Source of the DNA: Oryzias latipes
Taxonomy: Eukaryota; Chordata; Actinopteri; Beloniformes; Adrianichthyidae
NCBI RefSeq assembly: GCF_002234675.1
Contig: NC_019875.2
Coordinates: 27,773,818 to 27,837,817 of the forward strand
Length of the DNA: 64,000 nt
Direction: 5' to 3'
Position numbers and translations under genes: made by a program. This document shows positions 1-55,300 of the stretch, one piece after another. The first letter of the stretch is position 1. Each line of letters opens with the position of its first letter. The notes beneath the pieces were generated by a model. It saw nothing but the letters and a program-made list of their open reading frames with translations, was not told where the DNA came from and ran no database searches.

Positions 1-861
1 TTCTGAAACGAGACAAACAATAAAAAAAAAGCTTGAAAAAAAGAAATAGTTTAGATGTTTTTTGGCAGAACTGGATAATGAGATGTTTTTTATAAATGTT
101 GTTGTTGTAATGAGGTTTGAATGTAGTTCGGTGCCTCCCACTCGATCATCTTCACGTAAAGTTTGGATGAAGGCTGTTGTCGCTGCGAGAGGTGAAAGCT
201 GCAAGTATTACACTTTTTGTAAAATGAAACTATCTCTCCTTTTACCTCCACGATGCATTGTACTCTGAAACTCAAGAGCAGTTCACCTCAAGTTCTGTCA
301 TCGTTTCAGCTCCTATTATAATCAAAAGCCTTCGGCACTGTACACAACAGATTTCTGTTTTCTTCTGCAATTTCTGTCAAATTGGCCTTCTTCGCTTTTT
401 GTTGTTGTTCTACGGAGACCTTGTTTGGCCGTGATGCAACCATCAAAATCGCAAACACTGATTTGTTAGTTCAGAGACATTTTAAACTTCACAGACTCTG
501 ATGGATGCCACTTCCACTGTCTACAAAATCAGAAATGATGACCAGCAGTACCTAAACATTTGTGTGCCACTGTATCCGTTGTTCAGCTATGACTTCATTG
601 TTGCATCTTCACTCAAACTACCGGCTGAAAACAGCAGTTTTAATGTAATTCTTCCTTTAACTTCCATGATCATAAACATCTCCAGAGCCAACAGCCGTTT
701 TCTGTCGCCCCGGCCTTCAACCAAAAACCAGGTTTAGTTGAGCGGCTGAAACCTTTTTGCCATGATGTGCCCTCATGAGTTGAACTTCTAGCATTTGCAT
801 TGTGTTTTAGTTTCATTTCAGTCACCCTCACACATCTTTCTTTTCATCATGTCTATTCCAG

Positions 862-914
862 GATTTTCAAGAGAACCCAACCAGCCCTGGTGTCACGACT
901 AATCATGCCCCCAG
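862..914 (+). other. Putative frame-switching cassette exon of the ASIC gene
   Basis: A 53-nt segment bounded by a good acceptor (pyrimidine tract, then TATTCCAG) and a weak donor (CCCCAG/GTAGCA, with C instead of G at +5). It is open from phase 0 as DFQENPTSPGVTTNHAP plus two bases. Because 53 is 2 modulo 3, including or skipping it changes the frame of the terminal exon. Use as an exon is inferred from the sites and from the fit to the ASIC3 tail; alternative use is a hypothesis. Confidence 0.6.
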
Positions 915-1913
915 GTAGCACCCCGCTGCCCTGCTGTCCCTTTCTTTCATTCATCCCTGAGATCATCCCACCTTTAGTTGTCTAAATGCTTACAGGGATT
1001 TTGTTGGGAATTGCCCAAAAAAAAAAAAAAAAATGAAAGAAAAAGACTAAACTCTGATCTTCAGTGAGTATTCTGCCTCGTCAGAAGATTCAGTCATGAT
1101 GTGTGTTTGCGTTTCTCCGCCCAGATGAAGACAAGAGTTGGTTGGATTCTCTACGATTCTTACTTATTACAGCTTTCTCCTTCCACTGAATGACTGTTCC
1201 CCCCCCCCCTGTAGGTGAAAAAAATCAAAAAAAAAAAAAGATTTTAGTGTTAAAAAAAACAGAACAAGAGGATTTTTTTGCTCCTGCTGCCCACACATTC
1301 TACATTTGGCATAACTACGTGAAATCTTTGTGATGTGGTTTTATGCGCGGGAATAGCCACTTTTGGGTCTATGAATATTTGCTTTTCATAGTAGTTTATT
1401 ACATGTGAGCAGAGTTTTTCGATATTTCGATTTTAAAAGCATTGCACCATTTTAAATGTTAGCTCAGAAAAAGGACTAAAACTGTTTTCTTTCTCTTCTC
1501 CCTTCTTTAATTCTTTTCTTCCCGCCGTTCCATGACATCTTTCCTCATTTCCTCACTTTGTCCAAACTGGGAGAATATGTTCATCCATTCATGGATCTCC
1601 ACAACTCCTCATCCTCCATTTAAAATTGTTTGTCTAATTTTCCGTTAAAATGTTCCTGTTTTGGCATAATTTCTCTTTATTCCTCTTTTTTCTACCTTTG
1701 ATCGTGTTGCTTTTTTTTTGGTTTTCTGTGACTCCGCCTCTCCCTACATCACTCCTCCCTTAACATGGTTGAACTCGTCTTCCCTGCCCCCCCCCCTGTG
1801 TTTTGCAGAGCACCTGTGACACACTCCGGAGTCACTCGGACAGCCTCGGATTCACGCCGAACATGTTACCTCGTCACCCGACTTTAGGCAACTTTGAGGA
1901 GTTTGCCTGTTGA
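862..1913 (+). CDS. asic3: Acid-sensing ion channel (ASIC3/ASIC1 type), last two exons only
   Basis: 3' end of a proton-gated sodium channel of the DEG/ENaC family; the transmembrane and extracellular exons lie off the left edge. Two exons are visible: 862-914 (53 nt, after a pyrimidine-rich tract ending CAG, donor GTAGCA) and the terminal exon from 1809. Read with 862-914 included, the terminal exon gives a tail ending RTCYLVTRL and a stop at 1885-1887; this matches the ASIC3 C-terminus (human ends RTCYLVTQL, from memory), a PDZ-binding ligand. Read in phase 0 without it, the same exon gives CDTLRSH...NMLPRHP...FEEFAC and a stop at 1911-1913, matching the ASIC1 C-terminus (CESLRGH...NILPHHP...FEDFTC). 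The position beside cdk5 and abcb8 supports ASIC3. Teleost naming (asic3 or asic1c) is uncertain. The phase of the upstream exon cannot be seen here. Confidence 0.8.
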
Positions 1914-4900
1914 CAACGCAAAGTAAGGGTGTTGGGGCACATCTGGAGACTAGACAGCAAACTGTGAAACAACGTGCATTTAGCAAAAATAGGTTGAGTT
2001 TATGTTGACACAGGTAGTTGAAAAAAAAAAATGATGATGATACCACTTCCAAAACACAACTCAGGTTTGTCTGCCGTGTTAAGACGTCTGTTTTTGTTTT
2101 TCTCTTTCTCTTTGTTTTCCAGTCACTTTGGATCATTTACAAAGACTCGGTTTGTCATAAAAAGGAATTCTGACTTATTTTAAGATTCTTAAAAAAAATA
2201 ATAAAATAATAACAGTAATTGAAGCAACAAACTGTTTTTTTGTGAAAATCTGAGTCAAACTATAAACTGATTGGTTCTTGGGCCTCCGAATGGTTGTCAT
2301 ATCTATAATCAAGTTCCAAGTTTCCAGCATATTCACTGTGATCTTTTGAAATTCTGACTTAGCCTCTCCTGTTGGTTTTTCTTATGTGACTCTGTACCTT
2401 CATGTCCAACATCAGAGGCATGACAATCCGCGTGTCTTTTCCGGTTTTCTTTTGTTTTTGGTGGAATTAAATTTCTTCCAGACATGGAAATGGTATTCTT
2501 GAAACCTAAAATGATCCAGCTGAGATAGTCCTTTGATTTGTGTCCAGTAATACTGTAAGACTGTATTCCAAACACTGAACTGGTGTTTCGTGTTGCCTTT
2601 TGTTCCAATGAAGCTGTGAAAATGCTTCACTACTTAAAGAAAAAAACTGTGCTTACTGATTTAAAAACCCTGTAGGATGATTGATTGTTTGTACATAAGC
2701 AAACATTGGGTTTTGTTTCATCGTTTTACTCACTGCACAACACATAAGGTTAGCATGCAACAAGACAGCTTATTATATTTCAATGGCTGTCGTTTTTTTT
2801 TTCACAATCTGCTGTTTAGGGAAACGATCAAATGTAAGAAGCTAGTTTGACCCCTTGACACCTCAATTTATTTCCAGCAATGACAAAAAAATCACTAGGG
2901 TTTTTTCTAAGTGCTAACTTAGCCCTGATCGTAACTCAGACCCCCCCCCCCAGTTCAAAAAAAATTAAGAGTCGCACATCAGCAAATATCAAATCATTTC
3001 TAAAAATTTTGTGAACATGGAAAGTTCTGGTCATTGCTTGAAACATTAATGGGGTTTCTGGCCTTGTCATGTTTAAATGTAAGTACGGATGGGTGATAAA
3101 AAGTTATATTTACTCAGTTACTTTATTGAAATGTAGTTTAAAAAAAAGTATTCCCAAGAGATGTTTACCTGCACCTTACTTTTAACTTCTACTGGAGTAG
3201 ATTTATATGGATAAAAAAGTATTTCACTCAGCTACAATGTCTGTTTACTTTGTAACATAAATAATCAAATCTGAGCAGTATTAGTATCATCATAACTGGT
3301 TATTATAAAAAAAGATTTTGTCCAATCCTCATCAGCACTTTGGCAAAAAACGTCCAAACATCGGGGGAGTGGAGGAGCTCTGAAATGTCCACGATGGACC
3401 ACAAACTTGCTGATTGGAGCAGGGATGTTTGATGAAAAAAAAGGATTTAAAAAAATATGAAAATTAAAGGCCAGAAAACAATATTGGCCAACGTGTGTTT
3501 GGAAATATTGGACACCATAAAAATCTGATATTGTGCATCTCTTTTTCATTGATTTAACCAGGAGCTGAAAAAACACATAAAAAGACTTTTGTGTTGGACA
3601 GATTTTACTTTTACAATAGCAGGTTATGAAAGTTCAGACACACAAGGTGTATATTTGTATAAACCCCTTTTGTATTTGAGGCTAAAACTTTACGTATAGT
3701 AATTATATTTCCTATTGGATCAGACAGAATAGAGAAAAGAGAGTCTTTTATTCTGAAAATCTGTGAGTCTTGGTAATGCTTAAAAGAATGTAACAGAATG
3801 TTGTTGTTGCTTTTTTATTTAGTCTGGAAATACAGTAATTTGCACATTCAGTTTTATTTTTTTTTCAGAAGTTTGAAACTGTAAATTAGATGCACTCAAA
3901 ATGTAACTGAAGTCGTTTTTCCATCTGTTGTTTGTTTCAATATTACTTTGATGTGACATTACTCTTACTTGAGTAACAATACCCGGGCCGCCTCTGAATG
4001 TAACCGAACAGTTGTTAAAGGAATGTACAAAAGTTGGCCCAAGGTCCTCCATGAAGCACATTTTGGTGTCTTTCATTAGTTTCCTCTATCTTAGACTGTC
4101 TTTGACAAAATGAACCCTGTGCTGTTCTCCAAAAAGACTTGAAACTAGAGGTCAACTCTGGAAAATCATTGGAAAAATGTTAACTCGAGCCAGAATCAAA
4201 TGTAAACCTCTTGAAAAATTCAATATTTTGATTAGATGCTGTTTACTACTTCAGCAGGCTCCAGCAAGAAACATGCACTGCAAAAACAGGTCAAAAAAGT
4301 CACAGTTCTTAGAATTTATATACATATAGGCAAGAAAATCTGCCAATGGGAAAAGAAAATGGCCTTACCACCAAGGATAAGACAAGCTTTCCTAATATAA
4401 GACTATTTTCCAATTAAAAAACTTCATTAGGATTGTTTTTTATTAAAAATTAGAACATTTTAAGGGTATTTTTACTTTCTCAAGATGTAGTTTTTGCAGT
4501 GTGCAAGAGTCCATATCTCATATTTAAGACAAGAAGTTGTATTTTAACCTTAAATTTTATTTGTTGAAGCCTAAACATCAAATGTTTAGTATTGAACACA
4601 TTGACGATAAAAGGTTTTCATGTGAGGTTGAAGGGATTGCATTTGTTCAGTTGATTTTTAAACTTTTCCACCTATTTTTTTTTCATCTCATCTGCTCTAG
4701 TAACAACAACTTGCTGGATGGAAATGTGTAAATACTTGCAATCACAGGTAGATATCCCTCTTAAAAAAATGTTTGGGTCATTAATCATTAACTACACATT
4801 GCCTCAAAGCTGAACCTCAGCCCCATTCGGTTTGGCTATTTAAACAGCGAGTGCATTGTATAAAGTCATCACCACAAGTTATATAAAGCAGAAAGTTACT

Positions 4901-14404: not shown

Positions 14405-17400
14405 TCATTTCTTCTCCTCAGCTCTCTGTCTGCGGATCAGATCGGAGTAAATACCTCCTTTGCTCAGCAGTTCCAGGTGTGTTCCGGCCTGAAAGAAAAT
14501 TAAAAAATAGTTTGTGGATAAGATGAAAAATTGAAGCTAAAAAGAAAATTTAACAGTGCTCAGCTGATTATCACAAAGGCCATGCATGTTACTGATGAAG
14601 CAACAGCAATACAAGGTGGAATTAAAATTGGCTGAACAGTCCAGTAAACCAATGCTAGTTGGATATTTTTTAATGTCTTATTCTAATAAGTTTTAAATTA
14701 CTCATAAATGTTATTTTATCTTAAATTTCACCTTTAACTAGAATAATCCTCAGGAACCTGATAAATAATAATAGTAGTTATACTTGCATTCAATGTAACA
14801 ATCCAACCTCAGTCTTGGGGAAGTTGCAGCTAAAAAACTGTCTGATGTGCAAACATTTTTGATAACTTTCATCAGTCTGTTCCTCAAAAACAAACCTCCT
14901 AAACCAGGGGTGGGCAATTATTTTAACTCACGGGCCACTTTGGTTTCTAAAATTCGATAGAAGGGCTGGACCACAAGCAGATGTGTGCAGTGAGAATGAT
15001 ATAACATGGAATGTAGATGAAAACTTTTGGATTGAAAATTATATTCTACAACAGAATATTCTAGAGTTATTAGTTTAAAACCTTTGTTCCTATTTTCTAT
15101 TTTTTATTGTGAAGCCCTTTGGTATCTTCAAGGAGTTGTAAAGTGCTGTGTGAATAAAGTTTCATTCATTTATGGCGCTTTTAATAAAATAAATAACACT
15201 ATTTATGAAATAAAACAATAACCAAATAACACTCTATGATTTTCAAAGACAAAAATTCAGGAAAAATATACTGATACATAAAAAAAACATTAAACAATAA
15301 ATAGTGGATCCTCTCCCGTCATAATCCTAATAAAGACTTTGAGCGCTGAGGCTCAGCAGTTTGCATAGCTGTTCTGTGTCCTGCACGTCTGTTTCTCATC
15401 CAGTAACAATGAAAAAAGCTAATGTCTCTGTCTTCTGCTGCAGCTACGCATATCTGTGTTACCTTTTCACCAGTACAGAGTTCCCTCGTTTATTGCAGGA
15501 GTTCTAAAAATAACAGTGATCGGTGAAATCCACGGAGTCTGATTACAGACGTTTATGGCATCAAAACTCCTCACTGCTAATTACACTTTTCTCACACAGA
15601 CATGAACATTTTCACCCTTGTCTTTTGTTTAAATTCTCAAACTTTCATAGAAATTAGGTCCAGGATCATAGAATGAAAACAAAGATGAGATCATCAAAGA
15701 TTTCTGATCTGAAGAGCTCCGCCTTTCTGTACAGGAGACTGAGGAGATTGAATGACAAGGTCTCCAGCCAATCAGGACACAGAACAGGGTGCACTGTTTA
15801 AAAAACGCAGCATGATCGCTCTAAAAAAAATGAGCTAAACCGGGAAAGATGAACTGCGACGTAGAAAGGGAAGACTGTCTTCTGTTCTGTTTGACAGAGA
15901 CTTTTAGAGGGTTTCAGATTGGAGCACAGACTGCAGAAGGGGGGACTAAAATGTCAGTTCTTGATCGTGTGGCCAGATTAAAAAAACAAAACAAAAAACA
16001 TGGGTCTCTGATATTGTTCAGTGGGCCGGACCAAACATTGAGGCGGGCCGGATCCAGCCCGCGGGCCGCGGTTTGCCCACCCCTGTCCTAAACTGTTGAT
16101 TTCTCAGATTAAGGGCACAGTGAATAAGTGTCTGATGTCTGAATTTCAGATGTGCCCTCCAATATACTTATACCTCCAAACAAACGCTCCCAAAATATAC
16201 AGTGCGACCTCTTGTGGCCCTGTCCAAGCAGAGCGTAGTGAAATACGTTTTTTTCAAATTTCCGACAACATTGAATTTGGATTTAGCCTTAATTGGCAAA
16301 GTTACTATGGCAACCATTTGCAGGATTCAAATTAGAATACATTTCCCTTCTGGTCTGATGTATTTGGATTTTGGAGTCTTTGTTTTTGTTCAGAGGAATG
16401 CAATTCTTAAAATGATCTAAAATATGTCATTCTGAGTTCTTGAGTCATAAAGATGCTGCATAGCAACAACAGCAACTTAGACGAGCCTTTGAAGTCCAGC
16501 TGCTCTGATGAACAGAAGCCCACAATAAAAGGAACCTTAATCCGAAAAGACTTACTCTAAGTCTTAGAGTCTATGCACTGCTGTAGTAGACAGAAGGCTA
16601 ATTTACTTATTTGGCATAATTATCCCTCACCTCCACAATGCGTCCATTACTCATAACACAGATAAGGTCAGCCCGCTGGATTGTGCTCAGTCTGTGGGCA
16701 ATAATTAGCACGGTGCGACCTCTTGTGGCCCTGTCCAGAGCCTCCTGCACCACTCTCTCTGACTCTGCATCCAGAGCGCTGGTGGCTTCATCCAGTACCA
16801 GGATGCTGGGGTTTTTGATCAACGCGCGGGCGATGGCGATGCGTTGTTTCTGCCCACCCGATAGCGTAGCGCCTCTCTCACCTGACGACAGAAACCCGGA
16901 GCTTAGACTTGACAGTGATCGCATAAGCGTGTGAGATTGATTCCCATCACGTACCAACCAGGGTGTTGAAGCCTTCTGGGAAACTTGTAATGAAGCCGTA
17001 TGCGTTGGCTTGCTTTGATGCTTCAATGACTTCAGCATCGGTGGCTTCTGGCTTCCCGAAACGAATGTTTTCCATGATGGACGATCCAAACAAAACTGGT
17101 TCCTACGGGAAAAAAGTGCAGTGAATAAAGAAAATGGGAAACCAATCAACTTAAAAACATTTGTTATGAAAAAAAGTGGGTGCCAGCATTTACCTGATTG
17201 ATAAATCCAATGACTTGCCCTCTGAGCCAAGACAGGTCGAGAGTTCGAATATCGAGGCCATCCAGCATGATTACACCACTGGATGGGTCATAAAAGCGCT
17301 CCAGCAGGGCTGCTACTGTAGACTTTCCTAAAAAACATGATATTTTTAAGGTTAATTGCTTCTATGTTTATATGTCAGACATTAAAAATTCTAATAATAA

Positions 17401-20400
17401 AAATTCACCTCCTCCAGATTCTCCAACGATAGCGATGGTCTTAGATGGTGGCAGCATCAGGTTAAACTTCTTTAAGACTTCATGTCCAGGTCTTGTTGGA
17501 TAACTTTCAATACACACACAACAGGTAAACATTTCATATAAGTTAATGCATTTAAATATCTTGATTCCATTATCTAAGATGATTCTAACCTGAATGAAAT
17601 GTTCATAAAGTCCACCCTTCCCATCAGAGAATGATGTGGGATGCGTCCTCCCCCACAGAGGGGGATGGAGGGCTGCAGAGAAAGGTATTCAAATACCCGG
17701 GCCCCAGAGCTTATTCCTCTCACCATCTGCAATTAATAAGAAAATTATAATAATAAATATTGGTTTTTATTAAAGTCTACATGGGATGAACTACTACTCA
17801 CCTGTCCAAAAAGGATGGAGATGCTTGCCAAAGACCTGTGCAGAAAGAGAATGCATGCAATAGTGAAAACACTTTCTTTACCAAACTAAACACCCACTGC
17901 AATCATCTTTTGATCTATCTTCAAAGTGTTCCCAGTGGCTTTTTAGTTGTGATTGTGCTGTTTTTAGCCAAAATCGTCTTCTTTTCCTTTCAGCTTCTCC
18001 CTTCAGGAGTTGCCAGAGCGAATCAGCTTCCTCCATCTAACCCTTTCCTCTGCATGCTCTCCTCTAAAACCAGCTACCGTCATGTCTTTGTTCACTCACT
18101 CACTTATCTTTATCCTAGAAACGTCTAACATGTACTCTTTCCTGATCCTATCCGTCCCGGTCGCTCCCAAAGGGAGCCCTTAGCATCTCCATCTCCAAGT
18201 GTCGTTTTCTAGGACATAGTTTCTGCAGAGCAGCAGTAGTTGATTAGAAATTCACAATTTGAATAAAGAAATACTCAGGAATGATATTTCTTGCTTAATT
18301 CTCTTTATCTGTGTCCTCTATCATCAGAAAAATGCCACAAGAACATGTAGAAAAAAAAACATTACCAAGGATTTCATAATTCGATTTTTGTGTTACCTCT
18401 GAACTGTCTGAGATGCAACCAAGAAGGACATCAGGTCTCCAGGAGACAGTTCGTTGTTAGAAATTAAAGTCCCTCCAGCAAAAATAGTTCCAAGGACAAT
18501 GCCTGTATCCGCGGCACAAAAAGCGTCAGCATCACAGGGATTCTTCTTCATCATCTTTTAGCAGCAAACTCACAGTTTAGAGCCACGTTGGACAGTCCTT
18601 GGAAGATGGCGATACCGTTTCCAAGATTTTCATTCATTTCACAGGATTTGTCAACTTCGTATGCGTATAATCTGAGGAAACAAACATGGATATTCCAACG
18701 TAAAATCTACCATGAGTGCAAAACTTTGACACTAAAATGCAGCTGCCTTACTGGAGCTCCCGTTCCTCCATTGCAAAAGCTTTCACAGTCCGAACATTAC
18801 CCAGTGCCTCATCTGCTACTCCTGTTGCTTTGGCCACCTACATTTTCAACATTAAACACCTTGATCATTTTACCAAGCTAATATTGAGGATCATAACACA
18901 AGCATTTGATTCTTTAGATTTATGATCATGTAATCTATTAGGACAATGGAATAAATTCCTACCTGCTCTTGAGCCAAACGTGAAAGTTTGCGCAGGAATG
19001 AGCCGATGAGAGCTCCTGCTCCCACGAGGCACGGGAGCACGACCACCGTCAGGCCGGTGAGTTTGGGGGAAATGACATAAAGAGACACAAAACATCCAAC
19101 TGTCTGTGTGACGCTCCGCAGACCCTGAAAATATGCAAAGAAGATCCGATTTTAAACAGAAAAACAAAGTCGCCAAACCAGGCTTGAGACCATAGCTAAG
19201 AAAAAATATAGAAATATGATTGTTGATCAAAATGTACATTTACAAAACATAAAGAAACTGTAATGTATATCTGCAAATACTGTGGGAGTGCACTTGGGTT
19301 GGTGGGGAAAAAAAAGATTTAAATGGAACCAAATGAGTGTTCATACATGACAGACGTGTGTTTAACGTTTCCATGTGTGCTTGTTTTTATGGCTGTGACC
19401 AAATGGGAGGGCTGTGTTCTTCTTGGGCTGCATTTGTTGGCTGCTGAGGTCACAGCGCCGCGACAAGTGCTGTCCAAATTCAACGACACCGTCAAATGCG
19501 GCCAACGAATACGGCCTTCTTTTTCCCGACTTCAAGGATTGGTCTGGTGTGTCCTGTACTGTGCTGTACATATCCCAAGATGCATTGCAGCCAAACACAG
19601 CGATTTTCTGACAACAATGCAGACTGTGAAGCGGGACCCGAAGTTGGAAATACTTACACCTTTTTTATGTAAATTAAATTAAGGCTGGACTCGTCCATTA
19701 AGATCCGGCCTACCCGCTCGACAAAAGACGAGGCCAACGACGACCAGAAAGGCCGTGGCCTTAGGAGGACGCAGTCCTTGAATTTGGACACACCTATATA
19801 TTTATCTATAGGTGGAGTTATCTGAACCTAAAACTGTTCCTCATTAGAGAGGGAACAGGGTTATAATAGATGGTGGGTGCACAGGCAAACATGGGGTGAG
19901 AATTTACAAGGATTTTACTTCTTTTCACTCCCTTTCAGATATTTCTTGTTTATTTATCTATTTATTTTTATCCTGTCCTATTTTTCCTTCAAGGCATATG
20001 TCCGAAATAAAAGATTATCATATCATACCTGAGAAATGACCAGTTTAAAGGATGACTTAAACTCCTGGATGTCAGCTGTCAATCGATTTACCAGCTGACC
20101 GGTTTTATTGGCATCAAAAAAGGCGACGTCTTGCCTGATGAAAGAAAGTATGAACAAAGAATATTGATATAAAGAAAAATGGATTCAACGTGAAACCATC
20201 TTTTGAATATAAATAAAGTGTCTTCCAAGTCAACATTGCTGCGTATTTACCTGAGTAAAGATGCAAACAGAGTCTTCCTCATGTCTGCTGCCACTCTCTC
20301 CCCGACCCTTGAAAGCAGGATTATGTAGCCACTTGTTAGCAAGCCCTGCATAAGGAAGACGGGGAATGGACTCAGCATTAAACCATTAGACTACTACGTT

Positions 20401-26400: not shown

Positions 26401-29400
26401 TCATAAATTTGCTGTAACCCCCCCCCCCCCCTTTCTCTTCCATGTGGAAAACCCTGTTGTCACTTTTCTTCTTTTTAACAACATGCCGCCTCGACGCGAC
26501 TTGTTTTCTGCAGCTTGGCTCACAGACTTTTTGTGAATCTGATATGTGACGCAGAAGTTGTTTATACGAAAGTTAATGACGTGCGACAGCTTGTGATTCC
26601 AAGTAGGGAACAGCTTGTGCTACAGTTAGAAAAAAAAAAAAAACACACACACACATATATATATATCTATAAATATCTCCAGTCTGATATTTATAGCAAT
26701 TTTACATCTTATTTATAAACTAACTCTTAAATTTAGCTTGTTTGTAATTGAAATTGTAGAATATTGCCCACTTTTCACTTGCAATTGTAATAAATTGTAA
26801 ATGAAATATATCAAAACAAAACATGTGTTTATAAGTGAATTTTTTATTTATTACATTCAGGATACAAGACGACAGTTGGATCATATTCCTTCTCATCATG
26901 GCAGCAATCTTCTGGGTCTATCGGCTTGTTAAAGTCTTTTGCAATCTTTTGAGCTACTGGGAAATCCGGCAGTTCTACATCAAAGCTCTGAAGATCCGAA
27001 TGGTAATTATTATTGGCAGATTTCCTCTGAACAATGTTTGATATTTTTTAAATAGTGTGTGAAGAATTTGAGTCGTGGTATCATGCTTTTTTTTTTTGCT
27101 CTTGTGTATTCCAGGACGAACTATGCAACTTCACCTGGCAGGAGGTTCAGGGCCGAATCATCAGCCTGCAGAAAGAACAGCAAATGTGCATTCATAAGAA
27201 AGAACTGACAGAACTGGATATTTATCACCGCATCTTGCGTTTTAAGAATTACATGGTGGCCATGATAAACAAATCAGTGCTGCCGGTTCATTTACAGCTC
27301 CCCCTGCTGGGTAACGTAGTCTTTCTAACCCAGGGCCTCAAGTACAACTTTGAGCTCATTCTTTTCTGGGGGCCTGGCTCCCTCTTTCAAAATAAATGGA
27401 ACTTGCACCCCAAGTACAAGCGCAGCGGGAACCGCCTGGAGCTGGCCCAGCAGCTGAGCAGGGTCATCCTGCTGATGGGTCTGGCCAATTTACTGCTGTG
27501 TCCTTTCATCCTGGTGTGGCAGGTGCTCTACGCTTTCTTCAGCTACACCGAGGTGATCCGCAGAGAACCTGGAAGTCTGGGGGCCCGCCGCTGGTCCCTG
27601 TATGGTCGTTTGTACCTGCGGCACTTCAACGAGCTGAACCATGAGCTCCACGGACGATTGGGGCGTGGCTACAAACCCACTTCCAAATACATGAACTCTT
27701 TTACATCACCGCTACTGACTGTGATCGCTAAGAACGTCGCCTTCTTCTCAGGATCGGTATTAGCAGTTCTCATTGCACTGACTGTTTATGACGAGGACGT
27801 TCTGACAGTGCAGCACATCCTGACCGCTATCACTGTGCTGGGGGTGGTCATCACCATCACCAGGTGAGCTGGGACAAACACCTAAAAGCCACACTTACGC
27901 AATAATTCTTAAGAAGAAAGAATTTCAGCTTTATATGTGCAAAAATCTCTGGTTTGATGTGAATCTTGGCTACTATCTGACACTTTCTGCTTTCGTCACT
28001 AGATCTTTCATCCCAGACGAGCATTTGGTTTGGTGTCCGGAGCAGCTGCTGCAGTGCGTGCTGGCACATATTCACTACATGCCCGACCACTGGAGAGGCA
28101 ACGCTCACACAAGCGAGACCCGGGACGAGGTGGCACAGCTGTTTCAGTACAAAGCGGTGAGGAGAACACCAAAGTCCCGCCCCCAGCATCTTTACTTCAA
28201 TTTTTAAAGGGTCTTTTGGTTATGATGATGCTGTTTTTAGTCAAAATTTAAAATGCACTGTGTCGAGGGCAAAGTTTCTGCAGAGATGCAGTAGTTCATT
28301 CACCTCTGAGTTGCTTGGCAGGGAGCTTGTGCCCCGCCCAGCACATTTTCTACATCACAAATACAATTTTCTTAATAAATGTCCATTAACATCAGAAAAA
28401 TGCAGCAAAAACATGTGAAGAACACCCAAAAACGTCATTTTTATCAGAATGGGTCTTTAAATAATTGATAAAATGATGCATTTAAAGAATTGTTCTTAAT
28501 AATTGGGAGATCAAACTCTTCTGTCCATTGTTTCTTTGTATTGTTGAGAGTGAAACAGATGCTTTTCTTGTGTTGTCATCAGGTGTTTATCCTGGAGGAG
28601 TTGCTGAGCCCCATTGTTACTCCCTTTATTCTCATTTTCCTCCTGAGGAACAAGTCTCTGGAAATCATTGACTTCTTCAGGAACTTCACTGTGGAAGTGG
28701 TCGGAGTTGGCGACATCTGTTCTTTTGCACAGATGGACATCCGACGCCACGGAAACCCTGCGGTAAGACTTCTTTCGGGATTAGAGGCGATCTGCTTAGC
28801 ATCTCCCCGAAACATCATTAGTGCGGCTCTTTAATAGGACTCGCGTCTCGTTTCCGATTTGTGGCATCTTTGCGGTCTGTGTTTGCAGTGGATGTCGGAG
28901 GGTCAGACGGAGGCCTCCATGTACCAGCAGGCGGAGAACGGCAAAACGGAGTTGTCCCTCATGCACTTCACCATAAAGAACCCACGCTGGCAGCCGCCCC
29001 AGGAGAGCTCGGTGTTCATAAGCCACCTGAAGGAGAAGGTGCAGCACGACGCGCAGGGGGGTCCCTCCACACAGCTGCTCCTCTCAGAGGCTCCTCTCTG
29101 CACCTCGCTGCAGTCCAACGAGTCGGGGACCGGGGTGAGAAACTCGACACCCATGCTGGCTTCACTTTGGTTATGCATTTGTAGAATCAAGTGATGTAAA
29201 AATAGCACCTAGAAACTGTGAGGTAAAGTGGTCCCTTAATTATTTTGGGGATTCGTCCCATGGAAATCCTGCGATAGGGGAAGTCAGCTTTTTAGGATTC
29301 TAGATGTTTTATGGCTGTTTAACTCCTCATTACATACTTCATACTCTTCTCACAGACAGAACATTTTCAGTCTTGTCTCTCTTGTTTAAACTCCCAAAGA

Positions 29401-43147: not shown

Positions 43148-43345
43148 AGTCGGTGGGTACCGTCTGCTGGCCGGCAATGCCAGTTGTGGTTGATTTTCTG
43201 ACTTGATTTGGAAAGAGTGTTTTAGTTTCTTGTTTATTTTTTAGGATTTTTTTTTTCTCTTAGGAAAAAGATTCTTGTATTAAAATGCATCCATACAGCT
43301 GTCATTACATTTCTGTTTTCTTTGACGGCAGGAAAAGAACAAAGA

Positions 43346-46300
43346 ATGGATCAGAACTTCTTCGGAGGGGCCCCCCGGTTTCTCACTCGGCCGAAGGCTT
43401 TCTCTGTGTGTGTGGGGAAGGATGCTGCACTCAGCTGCACCATCGTGGGCAGCCCCACCCCAGTCGTAAGCTGGGAAAAAGACAAGCTCAAGCTCACGTC
43501 TGGGGGCCGCTTCAAGACCGTGGAGGATGGAGATGTGTACCGCCTGACCATCTATGACCTAACACTGGAAGATAGCGGCCAGTACATGTGCCGAGCCAAA
43601 AACAGTGTTGGGGAGGCGTACGCTGCTGTGACCCTGAAAGTGGCCCTGCCAGCAGAGATGTCTCAGAGGGCCCCTGCCTTCATGGTGAAGCCGTCCTCCA
43701 CACGTGTGGGCTTGGGGGGAGATGTCGTCTTCCACTGCCGGGTGGCAGCTCACCCTGAGGCCAACTTTGAGTGGGAGAAGGATGGGCGCTACCTCGGAGA
43801 GACCAACCGCATCAAGATAGTCTCTGACGGCGACAGCAGCACATTAAAGATTCAGAGTGTTCGCAGTCTGGACGGCGGCACCTACACCTGCAGGGCCCAA
43901 AACTCTGCAGGCCGTTCCCAGGCTGCAGCGACCCTTGGCGTTGACACGCAGGATGCTCGCCACACGTCTGTGGACAAAAACACCTCCCTGCTCTCCCATC
44001 TGCAAAAGCGCAAAGAGGAAATGAAGAAGGACATTTCCATCTATCACTCTGAAGAAAAGAGCAGCTCTGTCTCTTCCTCCTCCACAACCAACGTTGCCGA
44101 CGTGTTGAGTTCACTGAACCTGGAACACCAGTTAAGGGCATCTGCTCTGGCCAAGCTTCCCAAGGGTGTGTTCACCCGCACGTGCACAGTGACTGAGGGG
44201 AAACATGCCAAACTCAGCTGCTTAGTGACAGGTCACCCCAAACCGCACATCATCTGGAGGAAGGATGGGACTAACATCAGCGAAGGCCGCAGGCACGTCA
44301 TCTACGAGGACCAGGCCGAGAACTTCATCCTGAAGATCCTGTATTGCAAGCAGAGCGATAACGGCCTTTACACTTGCAATGCCACAAACATGGCTGGGCA
44401 GACCTACAGTGCTGTGTTGGTTACAGTGAAAGGTAAGCCTTGAGTCCTAACATAAATACTGCAAATGCTACATTTATGCTACAGAAATAGGATAATTATG
44501 GTAATATATAATCCCTTAAAATCAGAAAGATGTATATCCTCTTTTTTGTTTGCACATGAACATAAACATAAACTAGAAATACATTTGGTAAAACAACTTG
44601 GAATGAAGCCCTCAAACTGCAGATAAAACAATGCTGCATTGGAGAAATTAATAGACAATATTCAATGGAAAAGCATCAGCATTGCTTTAGTTGCTGCTGA
44701 AATCACAGTATTCAGGTGTTGAGTGGATTTCTGCAGTCTGTAATGGATGGGGCTATTCATAACAATGTTAAATTTGGGCTAAGCCTCTTAAGGAAAGTAT
44801 TGCATTGCATCTATTTTCTGCTGCTGATGAGCCGTTCACATTTGCCTTGGACTTCTTCACTGGACCACACAGACGCATGGCTGCTGGAACGGCCTTCGGG
44901 ATGTGGTTCAAACTGCACCGTTAAAGATTTGTGTTGCTTATAATGGTGCTGGTTCGTCTTTTCTTTGGATTCATGATTGGATTCGAGAGTTTATAGTTAC
45001 ATTTTGAGTTTAAAGTTAAAGTAGAAAAATAATGGCAGCATACAAATGTGTAAGTTGCCAAAGAAAAGTACCCCAAACAAACCCAACCAAAATGTATTCT
45101 AAAAGACCTTTCAATGAGTTCTTGATAGACTCAAGCTTTAGATAAACACTGTGATGATCATGCGCTTGTGGACCATGGTGTTATCTTCTCTCTACCAGAG
45201 CCTAAAGTTCCATTTAGGAGGAAGCTGCAGGATGTGGAGGTGCAGGAAAAAACCTCGGCCAAGCTCATGTGTGAGGTCCCTCTGGTTGCCACTCAGGCCA
45301 ACTGGTTCATGGAGGAAACGCGCCTGGAGCAAAGTTACAAGTATCACATGGAGGAGGACGGCACCGTGCGTCGCCTCACCATACATAATGTCACCACCAA
45401 CGATGATGGCGTTTACATCTGTGAGATGAAGGAGGGCAGCCGGACTGTCGCTGAGCTCACTGTCCTAGGTATCATTCTGAGGATTTCTTTTGAAATAGTT
45501 GCGTTTTTGTAATCACTTCTTCAATGCAGTTGACATTTCATGTGTTCAATAATCCTGTTAATAAATTCTTTTTGCAGGAAAGTTGTTTTAAAGACTGTAG
45601 AGTCGACGTTTACTCCTAAAAGTCTTTATACTCTTTGAATCCAAGTGTGTTGTGTTCTTCATCTCAGGTAACATCACTAAAAAGCTTCCTCGAAGAACAG
45701 TAGTTCCTGTCAGTGACACGGTCATCTTCTGCGTGGAGCTGGAACATCCGTGCCCGGATGTGTACTGGACTCGGAACGGCGAGAAGTTGAAGCAAGATTC
45801 CCGCATTTCGATTGCTTCCACGCTCAGACAGTACACCCTGACCATCAGGGATTGTCAGGCAGACGACTCCGGAGAAGTGGCCTTTGTGGCTGGAGACTGC
45901 AAAACCTCCACACGATTCTCTGTTACAGGTTAGTCAAGTCCATCCATTCATTTCCCAAACCTGCTTAATCCCATTTGGAGTCAACGGGATGCTGGAGCCT
46001 ATCCCAGCCACTGTCAGGTGAAGGGGGTAACTTAAAAGGTTCACCAGCCCACTGCAGGGCTACACAGAGCAAGCACACATTCCCACCTAAGGACAAGTTA
46101 GAGGCATCAATAATGATGCATGATGATCCATGATGCATGTTTTTGGACTGTGGGAGGAAGAAGAAAAACCCACGCATGCATAAGGTGAACTATCAAACTC
46201 CACACATAAAGTAACCAGTTGGGATTGGAACTCGGACCTTCTCATTGTGGAACGAAAATGCTAATCGCTACACCTCATTCAGCCCCCGAATTGAATCAAA

Positions 46301-49300
46301 TAAACATTTATTATTTTCTTTTTCATTGATCAAAGTTCAATCAAGGTTCCATGAGTTGTAAACGTGTTCTCTGCGTTTGACCCAACCCTTGGAGAAGCGG
46401 TGAGCTGCAGACACAGAAACCATTTAGGGGGTTTAACCCCAAATCCAACCCCTTAATGCTGAGTGTTAAGCAGGAACCTTTGGGTCCCATTGTTGGAGTT
46501 TTTGGTATGACTTGACCGTAGATTTGAACTCAAGATCTTCCAGTCTCAGGGCGGACACTCCAACACAAGGCCAATGAGTTAATATTAGTATTAGTATCCA
46601 CAAGTATTGATACTAGCTAGTATTTCAGTGGAATAACAGAATTACCGGAAAAAAACAACAACAAAGTACTGGGGAATAAAACTGTAACCTGGTGATTAAA
46701 CTAATCAAAAAAGGTACAAATTGTTGTGGTTTACTCACTTAGTTGTATCTTATGTTGATACTATTTTCATTTTACAAACCCTAATGCTTGTTTGTATTTC
46801 ACCATTAGTCAAAAACCTGAACTGGAAATCAGGAAATGAAGGAAGGAATTTGGTTTGGGGTTGTATGACCCTTTAAAGCAAATCAAAGTGCTATAAAATA
46901 CATCAGAGTAAAACTGTCTCACAACCACTGACTGTATCACTGAGTGAGTGAGTGAGTGAGTGAGTGAGTGAGTGAGTGAGTGAGTGAGTGAGTGAGTGAG
47001 TGAGTGAGTGAGTGAGTGAGTGAGTGAGTGAGTGAGTGAGTGAGTGAGTGAGTGAGTGAGTGAGTGAGTGAGTGAGTGAGTGAGTGAGTGAGTGAGTGAG
47101 TGAGTTGTCAACTAAAGAAAATGGCTGAATTCCAGCTTCAACCAAAAAAGGGCAATTCAGTCGCCATATGTTTGTGACACGGACGCCGCCATGTTGGAAC
47201 CAGCTACATCAGTGAGGAGTGATTGCTCAGAGTCAGTCTGACTCATCGTTTTCTCTTGCCAAGGACGAATGATTGTTCTGCAAGTAGAATGACTGAGTAA
47301 TAGCCGTTTATTTCTCTATGGAAGTCATCGGGATTTTGGCTTCTTGGAGCCAGCAGGTATTTTCTGTTTGGAACGCCAAGTGGGGAGGAGACAACCAGTC
47401 CAGTTCTCACATACTTAATGATCACAACATACACAAGTACAGACCTCAGATCCCTGAGGTCATGTGACCAGGGTCTGCTGGTTGTTAAGTGGATCCAGTT
47501 AAGTGGTTAAGTGGATCCAGTTAAAAACTAAAGGTGACAGAGCCTTTGCAGCAGTGGCTCCATCTCTCTGGAACTCTCAGCCTCATATGTGTGGACTCAG
47601 TGTTTTCTTTTAAAAAAGCAGCTAAAAACCTATCTTTTTAAAATAGCTTTTACATCATTCTTTTTATATTCTGTGCTTTTACTGTGAGGCACTTTGTGAT
47701 TTTTATCTTGAAAGGTGCTATGCAAATAAAGTTTATTATAAGTTTGTTACAACATATTGTTGTTGGCAAGAATGTAAAAAACTAAACATTTTACAACTTC
47801 TACACAACAAGCAGCGGTTTGTGTTAAATGTGAAGGACTGTTGAGCCGATGTATGAAAATGTAACTGTAGTTTCTAGCTGGTTATTTTGTGCAGCTTCAC
47901 ACTGGCGAGCCCCTGGTTTCACTTGTTTACCCTCCACAGCTGCACGGAAACATCCTCCTGACCCCCCCGTCGATGCCGTGGTGCAGAACAAGTCTGACTC
48001 CTCGATCACCTTTGGGTGGGCTCCTCCTGACAGCGACCGTCCTGTACCCATCAAAGGCTATGTCGTGGAGAGAAGGAAAGTTGGCGCCTCTACCTGGCAA
48101 AGGTGCAACGCTGGAGAACTCATTGTTACAACTGAGATCTCAATCTGCAACTTCACTGAAGAAGCTAGCTACCAATTCCGCATTTCTGCTGTTAATGACT
48201 TTGGGCAGAGTCCTTACCTGGAGGTTCCTGGAAGCTTCTTTCTTGGTGAGTGTGTGCCTTTTTTGTGAATTTCTCCTTTTGTGTCCCTTTTTCATGGATC
48301 TCTTGCTTTTGTTTTTCAGAGCCCACTGCAGACCTGAGGAAAGGTCTGGCGGACAGCTCTGCAGTTTCCGGGCAGGAGTTCTCTCTGTCCGTGGAACTGT
48401 CCGCTGTTTGCTCGGGCTTCTGGTCTTTAAATGGACGCCTCCTGCGTAGTGGAGCTGACTACCTCATCACCAGGTCAAAGACCACCCACACACTGGTCAT
48501 CCGCAACGTGACGATGGAAATGAACGGAGCTGAAGTTAAATTTGTGGGTGGAGGGTCAGAGAGCAGCTGCATTTTATCTGTAAAGGGTAAAATATTGTTA
48601 AATGGTCTTCTTTTGTTTTCAAATCGCACAGAACAAGGATGGATTCTAACTGCACAACTTCTGTTTTTAGCCCCTCCTGTTAGGTTCACCAACAAGTCAG
48701 ATCTTCCTGCAGAGGTGACCTGCAGTGTTCAAGATGCCGCTGAGCTTACTGCTGAGGTCTCAGACTTTGAAGCGGAGGTTTGTAAAAATGTTTTCTGTTT
48801 GTTTCCTTCAGACATCAATTAAGGAGCCACTCAGATGAAAATTGTGTTTTTTGTGTGTTTTTAACATCTTCTTGTGGCATTTTTCTAATGAAGGAGGACA
48901 TAGACAAAGAAACTTAAACTTCACATTTTCTAAGGATGTCTTTATTCAAATCTTTGTGAATTAGAATAAGAAGAAAAAATATTGCAGGAAAATAATCTGG
49001 GCGGGGCCCCAAGCTCCCTGCTCCACTCCATTCTGATGCATCCAGATAAATTGATCCATATACGTCGTTGTTTTCCTCCTCTGATCTGGCATCTGGATCA
49101 GAACTGTACGTCTGGATAACTCCAATATTGCTCGCCATTTTTTGCAACGGTAATGTTAGGTTGGCGGTGTGAGGGGCTGTAAGCTAGCGGGAGAACGTGG
49201 AAAGGGGATGAAGGGCGGAGTTACGCCACACAAACACTCCCGCCCACAACTTACGGATGATTTTTAATCAACTTTGCAATACAGCATGTTGTCATAGACG

Positions 49301-52300
49301 GATGCATGGGCAGGGACCCTCATGCATCACATATTGATGCTTTGGGTGACACAAACTCATAGTATTTTCGACGAGCTGAAAATAAAGGATTCCAAAATGT
49401 TGGTGATTGATTTACGCTTTCCACCATAACAATAATTTTACTTTTATTTTTGTGTTATATACCAACAAAATATAGGTTATTATAAGTGCACTAGGTATAA
49501 TAAAGGGAAATACTTTTTATAATTTTTATTTATTTTTATAATTATGATGATGATGATTATTATTATTGAGGCAGAAGTCACTATTTGTGAAACTTTACCA
49601 AAGTCATTTAATGGGAGCAGGCAACATGTCGAAACACGAGGAGTTGGGTTCATCCAAAGCGTCAATATATGACGAGTTGGGGTGAAAACTTGTTGGAAAT
49701 TGTGTCCTATAGAAACGACATGGGGTTTATGATTTAGACTAAAAAGGCATAATCAAAATGAAAAGTCCACTGGGAACCATTTGAAAATAAAAAAATGGGC
49801 TTTAAATAGGGCTGCACGATGAGGAAAACTCGCGATATGCGATATTGGTGATTAATATTGCGATAACGATATAATTTGCGGTATATAAACAAATGGCAAA
49901 ACAACCAAAAACATAATTTCCATTTCACTGCAACAGTTTAAAAATGATACTCCAAATGCCCTAATCGACGTAGGAGGCAAACATCAGACATAAAAGGGCT
50001 CATCTGATTGATCAACAATGTAAACGGGTCCTTCCGATTGGTTAAATGCATACAGGGATTTCTTTAATTTGTTCAATATTTCAAGCTGCCATGAGTTTGT
50101 TTTAGCACATTTAAGGTAACCATTTATTGCGATTTTCGCTGTCTTTTGCGGTATGCATATTGCACAGCTTGATGTTGCGATAACTATAAATTAGCTTATA
50201 TTGTGCAGGCCTAGCTTTAAACCTGTTTGACCTTATATTGGAAATATAGGAAGTGGAATAAAACTAAAAGTATCTGTCTGCAGGTTTTTCTGGCTTAACC
50301 CTTATGTGGTGTTCGGGTCTGTGGGACCCGTTTTCATTTTTTATCAAAAGAAAAATGATACAATTAATTAATTTTTCAAACTCAGATTCACTGGCCTTGG
50401 CTCATTTTCTGTGAAGAACAGATATCAGAACACATTTTTAATGACCACACACCGTATACCCCCCCAACACATTTATATTACATATAAGATGTTCGGGTCC
50501 ACTGGACCCGGGGCTAATAGAAGTGTGGAAATTGATGTTTTATGTACCTACACTCTGTCCTCCACCTGTCTGGGCCTGCTGTGTGTGTGTGGGTGTGTGT
50601 GTGTGTGTGTTACCAGTGAGAAAGAGAGAGAGAGAGTGGCAGAGAGAGAAAGATTCACTGTAAATGTGAGTTCTGTTTCTGCACCTGCGGTTCCCGCGCA
50701 AGGTTGCAACATTGTTAGAATAATTCAAGAATCAACTCTGTTTGCTCTCGTTCTCCCGCACATTTGACATTTAACCATTTGACTTTCTTGCGGGAATCTT
50801 TAATATCTCGCTCTTTATCTGCTACAAATTGGAGGCGGGACACGTTAAATATAGCTTTGCCAGTGTGGTTTCTTATCATAACTGATCAAAATGGCCAAAA
50901 GGCTTTCTGCGCAGAGGGCCCTGGAATGGATTTTAGAAGAGAGTGACGTTTTTGAGGATGATGTAGAGGGAGACGATTCAGAAGAGGAGGTTTCAGAATT
51001 AGAGGATCACATTTCTGAAAATTCAGAGTCTGACAGTGACTCTGAAGAAGATGATTAGATTGGGGCGGCCGTGGAGCAGCGGTCGGGTGGTTGGCCCATG
51101 ATCGTACGATTGCAGGTTCAATTCCCGCCTTGCACGCCCATGAGTCGAAGTGTCCTTGGGCAAGACACTGAACCCCACCTTGCCTCTGGTGGTAGGCGGG
51201 CGCCTGTGTTTGGCAGCAGAGCCGCCACCAGTGTCTGAATGTGTGAGTGAATGTGTGTGTCACTGGGTGAATGGGTCTGTGACTGTAAAGCGCTTTGTCC
51301 TTGTTGGAAGAAAGGCGCTATATAAGTATACGCCATTTACCATTTACCATTGAGCATCAGCCAGTTCCAAAACGAAGCCATCAGCGACCAGGCCGTCAGC
51401 GGCCAGGACCATGTGTTGTACAGGCTAGTGGCTAGAAGGCCATGTGTTCAATGGGGCTGATGTGTTGTCTTGACTAATAGGTTTACTCTATGTGTTCAGC
51501 TTGTGTTGTGCAGCTGAATGGGTTCAGTTTCTGTGTTCAAATAAATAAAAGTCAGTAGTTTTGAAAACCCTTGCTTCACTTGAAAATTTGTTTCCACTCA
51601 TATCTTGATTTTAATTGATTTTCTTTATCACGTTTTAAATAATGAGTTATGAATGTGATCTAACAAAGGTAAAGGGCAAAAATTAACCAAATATACTGAT
51701 TGTAAATGGATATGGTAAACATCTGTCGAGTATTTTAACATCAAAGTGTTTGATTGTGAGGCATTAAAAACCACAACATGCAACGGGTCCACCAGACCCA
51801 CGAACACTGGCTGAGTAACAACAATATGAACACCACACAAGGGTTAAATGTTCTCCACAAGCAATGCTGAACATTTCTAATGATTTTTTTTGCACCCAGT
51901 AAAAAATACACCAATCTAATGGAGAGCATTTTATTTATTTTTTTACCTTCTGCCCTTTTGTTTCTTTTCTTATGCACTTTTTCCGTTTGTACAAAACTCA
52001 TGTTTGAAATATTTAGTCGTGTGAAATACTAACTGTTCATATCTGGTTTTTCAGGTTGTTTGGATGAAAAATGGTCGGGAGGTAAAAGTTGGCAAGAAGT
52101 ATGAATATGTGGTGATGGATCGAAAGAGGACCCTGGTAGTTCACAACGTAACGGAGGAAGATGTGGGCATTTATGAGTGTGTTTTAGGAAATGAAAAGTT
52201 ACCCATAAAACTCAACCTGAAAGGTACATTCATTATTTTTATATAAGCTTGCTTCTTCCCCCTCCTTTTCAAGCAATAAATCAAGCTCTACTGAACTTTA

Positions 52301-55300
52301 GTTAATTATCTCTTTATTTAATTAAGCAAATGTGATTTAGGTGACTTTTTTGTTTTGTTTTAGTCTTTGTCTTTTTAAAATATGCATTTCAACATTTCTG
52401 TAATGAGTTTGATAAATATGTGTAATTTCTTTATTACTTTGACTACAATGCTTGAAAAAAATCAAAAACCACTAAATCACAGTATAAAATCATTTATTTG
52501 TTTTTTTTTAAAAACTACATATTAAAAGAAGTGATTTATCATAGAATAACTGAGTCACTGAGTTACTTTTTTAATCTCTTAGACGAACCTGCCAAATTTC
52601 TGAACAAAGCAAGAGGAACTATGGGATTGTCATCCTCACTCAAAGGAGATCTTGAGTTGAGCTGTGAAGTCTCTCCTGCCAGCGGTGTTGTTGTTTGGAG
52701 AAAGGATCAAGTAGAAATTACGGAGGACCAAAGAACTATAATCTTTTCAAAAGGGACTCACAGGAAGCTCATCATCAAGGGCGCCAAGAAAAGTGATGAA
52801 GGCCATTACTCCTGTGAGACGGCAGCCGACAAAGTCACATTCCATGTCAAAATCAAAGGTAGGACTTTTAACCTTCTGCAAAACAAAGGTATAACTTCAT
52901 ATTGAAGTTTGCTTAGCTTTGATTTTTTGATTTCAGAAGCTCAAGCCCAAGCTTTTTTCACCAACAAAGAGTCCGTCCAGAAGGAGGTGAGGGCGACTCT
53001 TTCCCAGAAAGTAACACTTAGCTGTGAAGTGTCTGACTGCAAGATGGAGGTGAAATGGCACAAAGACGGCAAGCTGCTTGGGTCAAGTCGGACGGTGTAC
53101 CCAGAGGCAAAGGGGGCTGTCCGTCAGCTGGTGATTGAAAAAGCAGAGAGGAGTGATGCTGGAGAGTACACATGTGAAGCCGGAGGGGAGAAGCTTTCCT
53201 TTAGGATCCTTGTGTCAGGTAGAACCTGTTGATTTGTTTTGCATCTCCTTTCTTGGTCGTGTTCTTGGTATTAGTCAAGCACTTTGACAGGAACATCATT
53301 TTAGTGACAATTTTGGTGAAACTCTCATTTATCTTTCAGACGTTCAACCAACGTTCCTCAACAAGGACTTGGTTCAGAAGGAAGTGAAAGCCACCGTTTC
53401 CCAGAAAACCACTTTAAGCTGTGAGGTTGCGGATACCAAAACAGAGGTCAAGTGGTTTAAAGATGGCAAGCAGCTGACCTCCAGCAAAACTGTTCACACT
53501 GAATCAAAAGGAAAACTTCGTCAGCTGGTGATAGACAGCGTGGAGAAGAAAGATGCTGGAGAGTACATTTGTGAGGCTGGCCCAGAGAAGATGGCTTTTA
53601 AGATCCAAGTAGCAGGTAAAAGTAGAGGGTGAATGTTACAAAGCTTTTTAGGATCCTGTCTGATGTACTGATTTGCTGTCATAAACCTTCCATCAGAGAT
53701 GCAGCCGGTCTTCTCCAACAAAGATTCAGTCCAGAAGGAGATGAAAGCCAATGTGTCCCAGAAGGCCACTCTCAGCTGTGAGGTGTTTGATTCCAACACT
53801 GAAGTGAAATGGTACAAAGACCAAAAGCTCATCACTTCCAGTAAAACTGTTCATGTCGAGGCAAAGGGGAAGATTCGCCAGTTGGTAATCGACGGCTTGG
53901 ACAAGAAGGACGCTGGAGAGTACACCTGTGAATCTGGGACTGAAAAGCTGGTCTTTAAACTTCAGGTGGCAGGTAAGACCGGTACCAAACCCTTTCACCA
54001 AACCAAAGCTGACAGTTACAAAATACTGTCGTGTACATTTGTGGTCTGCCCAGACACGCAGGTGCAGTCGGCTTTCCTTAAAAAAGAATCAGTCCAGAAG
54101 GAGGTGAAGGCCACGCTCTCCAAGACTGCCACTCTGACCTGCGAGGTGGCTGATGCCAAAACGGAGGTGAAATGGTTCAAGGAGGGCAAACTGGTGACAT
54201 CCAGCAAGACGGTTCATGCAGAGTCTAAAGGGAAGATGCGGCAGCTGGTCATCGACAGCGTGGAGAAGAGAGATGCTGGAGAATACAGCTGTGAGGCTGG
54301 AACTGAGAAGATGACTTTTAAAATACACCTGGATGGTAAGGAAATGCAATGTTTTCAATAATAAATGTCAGAAATTGTAATTGACATGCTTATATATTAT
54401 TTTATAATTAGCTGGTTTGGGTAAAATTTGGAAGCTTTTTGTTTGTCTTTTCCTCAAAAAAACCCTATTATCTATATTTTTAGTCAGACTTTTATTTTGG
54501 AATTCAGTACGTCTTAGCTTAAATATTGAAGTTTATTTTAGGAACATGTATTGTTTCCCCTCAGCAGCTACTGCTTGGTTGTTGGTAAAAATCCAAAAAT
54601 TAAAGATGGAACCAGCAAATCATAAAGTCTTGATAGCAAAACTGTTTTATTTCTCTGTACCTCCACAGAAGGTCAACCCAAATCTGGCTTCTCCAACAAG
54701 GAGTCAGTCCAGAAGGAGGTGAAGGCCACGCTCTCCAAGACCGCCACTCTGACCTGCGAGGTGGCTGATGCCAAAACGGAGGTGAAATGGTTCAAGGAGG
54801 GCAAACTGGTGACATCCAGCAAGACGGTTCATGCAGAGTCTAAAGGGAAGATGCGGCAGCTGGTCATCGACAGCATGGAGAAGAAAGATGCTGGAGAATA
54901 CAGCTGTGAGGCTGGAACTGAGAAGATGACTTTTAAAATACACCTGGATGGTAAGGACATGCAATGTTTTCAATAATAAAGGTCAGAAATTGTATTTGAC
55001 ATGCTTATATATTATTTTATAATTAGCTGGTTTGGGTAAAATTTGGAAGCTTTTTGTTTGTCTTTTCCTCAAAAAAACCCTATTATCTATATTTTTAGTC
55101 AGACTTTTATTTTGGAATTCAGTACGTCTTAGCTTAAATATTGAAGTTTATTTTAGGAACATGTATTGTTTCCCCTCAGCAGCTACTGCTTGGTTGTTGG
55201 TAAAAATCCAAAAATTAAAGATGGAACCAGCAAATCATAAAGTCTTGATAGCAAAACTGTTTTATTTCTCTTTACCTCCACAGAAGGTCAACCCAAATCT

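Follow-up and report, generated by a model that had tools for sequence, protein, structure and literature searches.

A probable teleost ASIC3 orthologue with a dual-coding terminal exon and a candidate splice toggle between two C-terminal tails

The C2/C2' variants of GRIN1 and the a/b variants of PMCA arise by splicing that shifts the reading frame and swaps a PDZ ligand, and to our knowledge there is no claim that the alternative tail of either is the tail of a paralog. One report describes penultimate-exon skipping with a frame shift as widespread (PMC7392665), and another describes non-triplet splicing that leads, in worms as well as in humans, to isoforms with dual coding (PMC13247117). 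In such cases, as would hold at the locus described here, a non-triplet exon before the last alters both the frame and the C-terminus and nonsense-mediated decay is evaded; unlike them, the fish locus has two frames that both resemble the tails of named paralogs. The main texts of these two reports contain no words beginning ASIC or PDZ, and no two-frame ASIC3 exon appears among the literature matches listed. The class of mechanism is known, and an exon with the tails of two paralogs in its two frames looks new.

The partners of the ASIC tails are described in a review (PMC8555555), which states that PICK1 binds ASIC1 and ASIC2 and not ASIC3, that CIPP binds ASIC3 and neither ASIC1a nor ASIC2a, that the ASIC3 motif is bound by NHERF1/2 and Lin-7B, and that PSD-95 binds ASIC3 and ASIC2a alike. 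The same review gives TCYLVTQL as the distal C-terminus and PDZ motif of ASIC3 and as the segment required by stomatin. Other papers also print TCYLVTQL as a human ASIC3 peptide and Ile-Ala-Cys as the ASIC2 end.

The DNA analyzed is a stretch of 64,000 nucleotides from Oryzias latipes (the window; C17:27773818-27837817, where C17 is contig NC_019875.2 and other C numbers are further contigs of the same genome, 734 Mb in 25 contigs), and ~60 kb upstream was added to build the gene. Near the start of the window lies an exon that can be read in two ways:

1809 to 1913, + strand: terminal coding exon in phase 0, encoding the ASIC1/2-type tail STCDTLRSHSDSLGFTPNMLPRHPTLGNFEEFAC, with stop TGA at 1911-1913
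1810 to 1887, + strand: frame +1 of the same terminal exon, encoding the ASIC3-type tail APVTHSGVTRTASDSRRTCYLVTRL with a PDZ-ligand-like end, and stop TAG at 1885-1887
2200 to 2205, + strand: candidate poly(A) signal AATAAA, ~290 bases past the phase-0 stop, a string match only

The acceptor ahead of 1809 is ttttgcag (context ...ctgtgttttgcag|AGC) and joins in frame with an exon ending ...PSDNL. In phase 0 the exon carries the motifs STCDTLRSH...NMLPRHP...GNFEEFAC, and phmmer aligned this tail through the last residue with the PDB sequences of human ASIC1 and of chicken ASIC1; the ungapped comparison with human ASIC1 gives 14 identities in 34, of which 9/25 fall in the first and 5/9 in the last residues. 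One base over, the exon reads GVTRTASDSRRTCYLVTRL, identical at 7/8 positions to the printed TCYLVTQL and at 13/19 to the 19-mer AVTKTLSASHRTCYLVTQL, which we take to be the mammalian ASIC3 C-terminus; apart from TCYLVTQL and the published primers, all human and rat ASIC3 sequence used here is likewise presumed. The preliminary description had read two overlapping ASIC-like tails in this one exon, with the codons of NMLPRHPTL overlapping those of (R)TCYLVTRL, and both statements agree with the frames found: the bases are common to NMLPRHPTL (1860-1886) and TCYLVTRL (1861-1884). Both frames are open from 1810 to 1884, that is over 75 nt, and the dual-coding threshold of PMC13247117 is at least 60 nt. 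We conclude with high confidence that exon 1809-1913 genuinely contains both frames.

To which gene does this exon belong? The gene model was built from the following exons, among others:

C17:27736875-27737399: first exon, ASIC3-type
C17:27771365-27771436: penultimate exon, VFKDKVLGYFLRKKRPQRCPSDNL, ending ...PSDNL

After the first exon, seven exons supply the extracellular domain and the second membrane segment, and in all nine coding exons precede the tail, with the chosen joins being GT-AG and the frame unbroken. Direct joining of the penultimate to the terminal exon is in phase 0 and yields a channel of 504 residues, ASIC1-type tail included, which matches chicken ASIC1 with 745.9 bits over residues 6-504 and is aligned to the last residue (phmmer). 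Pfam ASC exons above the cut-off and the full-length match with both membrane segments place it among the ASIC (DEG/ENaC) channels. A family search found ASC-family exons at no fewer than five places in the genome (C5, C7, C8, C21 and C17), these counts being lower bounds. The C5 gene (by tail and linker) and the C7 gene (by linker) are ASIC1-like, and by their tails the C8 gene is ASIC2 and the C21 gene ASIC4, the latter label being presumed. In the 20 kb around the second fish ASIC1 gene (C7:19215001-19235000), a motif search revealed no terminal exon of the usual kind, nor did a protein search among the best-scoring candidates.

When 11 first-exon segments were placed in a tree, the exon at 27736875 grouped with human ASIC3 (presumed sequence) with support of 91/93, the first value being under the tool's mark of 95. 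Its identity to this human ASIC3 sequence is 49%, compared with 33-44% for the other nine rows. The penultimate-exon stretch VFKDKVLGYF seems ASIC3-like. Human ASIC3 presumably adjoins ABCB8 and ATG9B, and two neighbors in the window bear on this arrangement:

17371 to 17688, - strand: open frame for part of an ABC transporter, whose best solved match is ABCB8 (41.2 bits), with ABCB1 at 40.4, from a short query and the best 60 of 112 hits
27052 to 28831, + strand: open frames of an ATG9 gene (27052-27864 and 28472-28831), matching ATG9A with 236.5 bits and ATG9B with 161.3

The ABC transporter is only 0.8 bits nearer ABCB8 than ABCB1, and the ATG9 gene is nearer ATG9A. The assignment to an ASIC3 locus is therefore based on the first exon, on the apparent likeness of the VFKDKVLGYF exon and, weakly, on the ABC neighbor. 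A C-terminus of the form TCYLVT(Q/R)L, by which ASIC3 was recognized, is encoded in the fish gene as well, and the gene is likely an ASIC3 orthologue. The gene as a whole is not simply ASIC1-like. A zebrafish review names six ASIC genes, none of them asic3, and nevertheless reports ASIC3 immunoreactivity. No chain named ASIC3 occurs among 32 PDB sequences listed, a search with the fish ASIC3-type tail gave no match, and viral_contigs and genome_contigs (viruses and prokaryotes) contained no relatives, a miss that was expected.

Upstream of the common exons there are three apparent alternative first exons. The exon at C17:27665555-27666091 is a-type (nearest ASIC1a by eye), that at C17:27736875-27737399 is the ASIC3-type exon of the model, and that at C17:27754323-27754838 is b-type and clusters with the ASIC1b and ASIC2b exons of the fish (support 100/100). 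All three would join this gene, since the family search found no other ASC exons between them. Exon 3 is doubled (C17:27758801-27758928 and C17:27762185-27762312), both copies being 128 nt and of the pattern DETSYEAGIKVQIHSQ.EPPF...; the first copy reads VSCQQQL and the second VSTQEQR, without the cysteine. Both have poor donor scores, and they are perhaps mutually exclusive.

A further question is how both tails could be made from one gene. An intron of 4189 bases separates the PSDNL exon from the terminal exon, and a plausible switch for the two tails, absent from the preliminary description, is found within it:

862 to 914, + strand: candidate cassette exon of 53 nt (2 mod 3), entered in phase 0 and left in phase 2, encoding DFQENPTSPGVTTNHAP plus R

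This candidate is a non-triplet exon before a common exon, the arrangement by which dual coding is recognized. If 862-914 is skipped, ...RCPSDNL would run into the terminal exon in phase 0 and the 504-aa channel would carry the ASIC1/2-type tail ending NFEEFAC. If it is included, the frame shifts to ...PSDNL DFQENPTSPGVTTNHAPR APVTHSGVTRTASDSRRTCYLVTRL, so that DFQENPTSPGVTTNHAPR would be inserted and a channel of 513 residues would carry the ASIC3-type tail with its PDZ ligand, ending RTCYLVTRL. Since both stops lie in the last exon, both transcripts should evade nonsense-mediated decay. The toggle would replace a PDZ ligand of the ASIC1/2 type, such as PICK1 binds, with one of the ASIC3 type, such as CIPP and NHERF1/2 bind and stomatin requires. 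Given the tail-specific partners in the review, such a switch would alter the partners, the surface level and the stomatin control of one channel, and we infer that 862-914 is used, that both tails are expressed and that partners are exchanged in this way in fish. We assign a probability of roughly 0.64 to the reading of this locus as a probable teleost ASIC3 orthologue with a dual-coding terminal exon whose tails would be toggled by 862-914, and the two-frame exon is much firmer than 862-914 as its switch. If true, one small exon that causes the same bases to be re-read would set the partners of a channel (PICK1 versus CIPP, NHERF and stomatin), and the locus would give vertebrates an example of dual coding with a recognizable and directly testable function in both frames.

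It is unlikely, in our estimate, that phase 0 alone is used in fish and that shared ancestry has left the ASIC3-type frame as a shadow, with the exon that exposes it gained later in mammals. The direct splice from the preceding exon, which is phase 0, favors this explanation. However, the wobble bases of phase 0 are the second bases of the other frame and would be expected to drift, and resampling addresses this point. In 20,000 trials for each test, the peptide of one frame was fixed and synonymous codons were resampled with the gene's own usage, a procedure that assumes saturated synonymous change since the fish/mammal split and uses references chosen because of the finding. With the phase-0 peptide fixed, 12/20,000 were as good against the printed 8-mer TCYLVTQL (92 by identities alone) and 3/20,000 against the presumed 19-mer (15 by identities alone), and 0/20,000 combined the 19-mer score with an open frame and a stop at the same codon. 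The phase-matched candidate exon at 862-914 also argues against use of phase 0 alone. In the reverse test, with the ASIC3-frame peptide fixed, 7/20,000 were as good against human ASIC1 in phase 0, and this test is weaker by identities alone (395/20,000). The last nine phase-0 codons lie almost all past the ASIC3-frame stop, yet they match ASIC1 at 5/9, and draws from the next 2,000 bases equaled this phase-0 likeness to the last nine ASIC1 residues in 0/20,000 cases. Neither tail's likeness follows from the other frame's, and chance resemblance is ruled out by resampling both ways. The proposal that the gene may keep both tails thus holds in so far as both are encoded and both likenesses exceed what one frame forces.

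The terminal exons of ASIC1, ASIC2 and ASIC4 in the same genome served as controls (10,000 resamplings each in the +1 frame; the ASIC2 exon was taken from its second AG onward, which omits its first codon). The +1 frame of fish ASIC2 has no match (p8 0.87, p19 0.29); that of ASIC4 reads TGYLRTSL, without TCYL, and matches at 5/8 and 8/19 positions (p8 0.043, p19 0.0098); and that of ASIC1 reads TCYLIIQA, matching at 5/8 (p8 0.010, p19 0.085). The p19 of ASIC4 and the p8 of ASIC1 indicate that some +1 likeness is common beyond this gene, and the partial shadow in ASIC1 and partial match in ASIC4 count in favor of a phase-0-only gene. They slightly weaken the test and are nevertheless consistent with an ASIC3 tail derived from a shifted ASIC1-type frame. 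Conserved NMLP codons as the sole cause are partly true as an explanation, and the paralogs reach neither the score nor the stop seen here. The three control exons are like the phase-0 tail in their ends (FEDFTC, LEEIAC or FEDFAC), and ASIC1 also in NMLPHHP; in contrast, a second frame of ASIC3 type that stops at this place is absent from all three.

If both tails are made, is 862-914 their switch? Splice scores were calculated with presumed splice-site matrices. The 862-914 acceptor scores 4.23 bits and ranks 6th of 224 AG in the intron, and its donor, CAG|GTAGCA, scores a weak 0.52 bits and ranks 11th of 225 GT, with 8 of 10 other donors in the gene being higher. As a pair the two sites come 3rd of 381 open AG-GT pairs in the intron, and one of the two better pairs, at window positions -1361 to -1315 (ISAGLLGNDLWEKLT), is also 2 mod 3. 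That both tails are made by some other switch, namely a different exon in the 4.2-kb intron, a tandem acceptor or ribosomal frameshifting, is an improbable alternative; it draws on the 112 phase-compatible open candidates, one of which stands slightly above 862-914 on splice signals, and on a tandem acceptor that does exist:

1807 to 1810, + strand: tandem acceptor CAG|AG|CACC with sites two bases apart, from a reading of the sequence

Against another switch, 862-914 is, of the 112 candidates, the one most like the presumed human ASIC3 linker and the second most like the presumed rat linker, a weak likeness with shuffle p of 0.04 for human and 0.10 for rat. Its peptide has QE close to its beginning and meets the tail with PR, the R there being as in PR.P. 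The second acceptor (1811), used from the PSDNL exon, yields HL and then a stop and was rejected as the switch; if the cassette were joined to the second AG, the tail would again be of ASIC1 type. The terminal exon of fish ASIC2 opens in the same way, with CCCAG|AG. No AG occurs between 1573 and 1806, so that simple lengthening of the terminal exon by an upstream acceptor there is rejected and the frame change requires a separate exon or some other device. TGCATG was absent near the exon within window positions 1-3000. A constitutive cassette, with the ASIC3-type tail alone used in fish and phase 0 a fossil, would account for the candidate exon 862-914 and for such an end in mammalian ASIC3 as described in the literature, but it is very improbable because the codons past the ASIC3-frame stop still encode NFEEFAC and a stop, near the fish ASIC1, ASIC2 and ASIC4 ends, and because of the downstream-DNA (0/20,000) and reverse (7/20,000) tests against ASIC1.

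Comparison with mammals extends the two-frame reading beyond one fish, the evidence base as a whole being that fish with the paralogs in its genome, presumed ASIC3 sequence and a single mouse primer of 22 bases. The sense strand of a mouse Asic3 reverse primer printed in three papers (CCTTGTGACGAGGTAACAGGTA) can be read over its 22 bases as TCYLVTR or, in a different frame, as YLLPRHK, the latter corresponding to NMLPRHP in the fish and NILPHHP in ASIC1. The best match of the primer on the + strand of the 64-kb window is at 1860 (17/22, 14 of them consecutive), compared with 15 for the next best and 14 for the best on the - strand, and 0/200 shuffled primers reached 17 within the exon. A look for the same overlap in human ASIC3 had been suggested, and over these 22 mouse bases it is present. 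The mammalian C-terminus (TCYLVTQL/R) is like that of the fish in frame and end, at 7/8, and differs in that YLLPRHK resembles part of an ASIC1-type tail within the 22 bases, whereas the fish exon has the full tail with its own stop.

One mouse forward primer is genomic, CACAG + CTCCAGGAGGAGTTGAA, and the other is cDNA, TG + CTCCAGGAAGAGTTGAATG. They diverge exactly before CTCCAGGA (LQEEL), with one inner base differing too. This divergence is suggestive only, and points to a mouse intron at the position of the fish intron after ...PSDNL; the primer descriptions give no amplicon length that would reveal a second one. Published work describes three human ASIC3 splice variants with different C-termini, which counts for a toggle, and states that rat ASIC3 is without such variants, which counts against it.

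From these comparisons, the mammalian ASIC3 tail may have derived from an overprinted frame of an older ASIC1-type tail. This direction of change is suggested by the ASIC1-type tail being common to the fish ASIC1, ASIC2 and ASIC4 genes, and the earlier proposal of a frame-shift origin for the ASIC3 ligand fits with TCYLIIQA in the same shifted frame of fish ASIC1. We tentatively suggest, at somewhat below even odds, that the toggle is ancient: the vertebrate ASIC3 gene would once have held both ends in one exon, as the fish gene still does, along with what seem to be a-type, b-type and ASIC3-type alternative starts, its PDZ ligand would have been born by overprinting, and mammals would later have fixed one option. 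If true, both readings would have been retained since before the fish/mammal split, the origin of the distinctive ASIC3 tail would be explained and an ASIC3 gene would be placed in fish.

In the rest of the window, the + strand carries an extended series of Ig-type repeats (43226-61881) that resembles an OBSL1/obscurin-type gene. Within it are near-identical blocks at 54408-54973 and 55023-55579, 615 bases apart. A perfect tetranucleotide array of 41.2 copies of TGAG occupies 46941-47105, and a long open frame on the - strand (62848-63999) is, by eye, like a retrotransposon reverse transcriptase.
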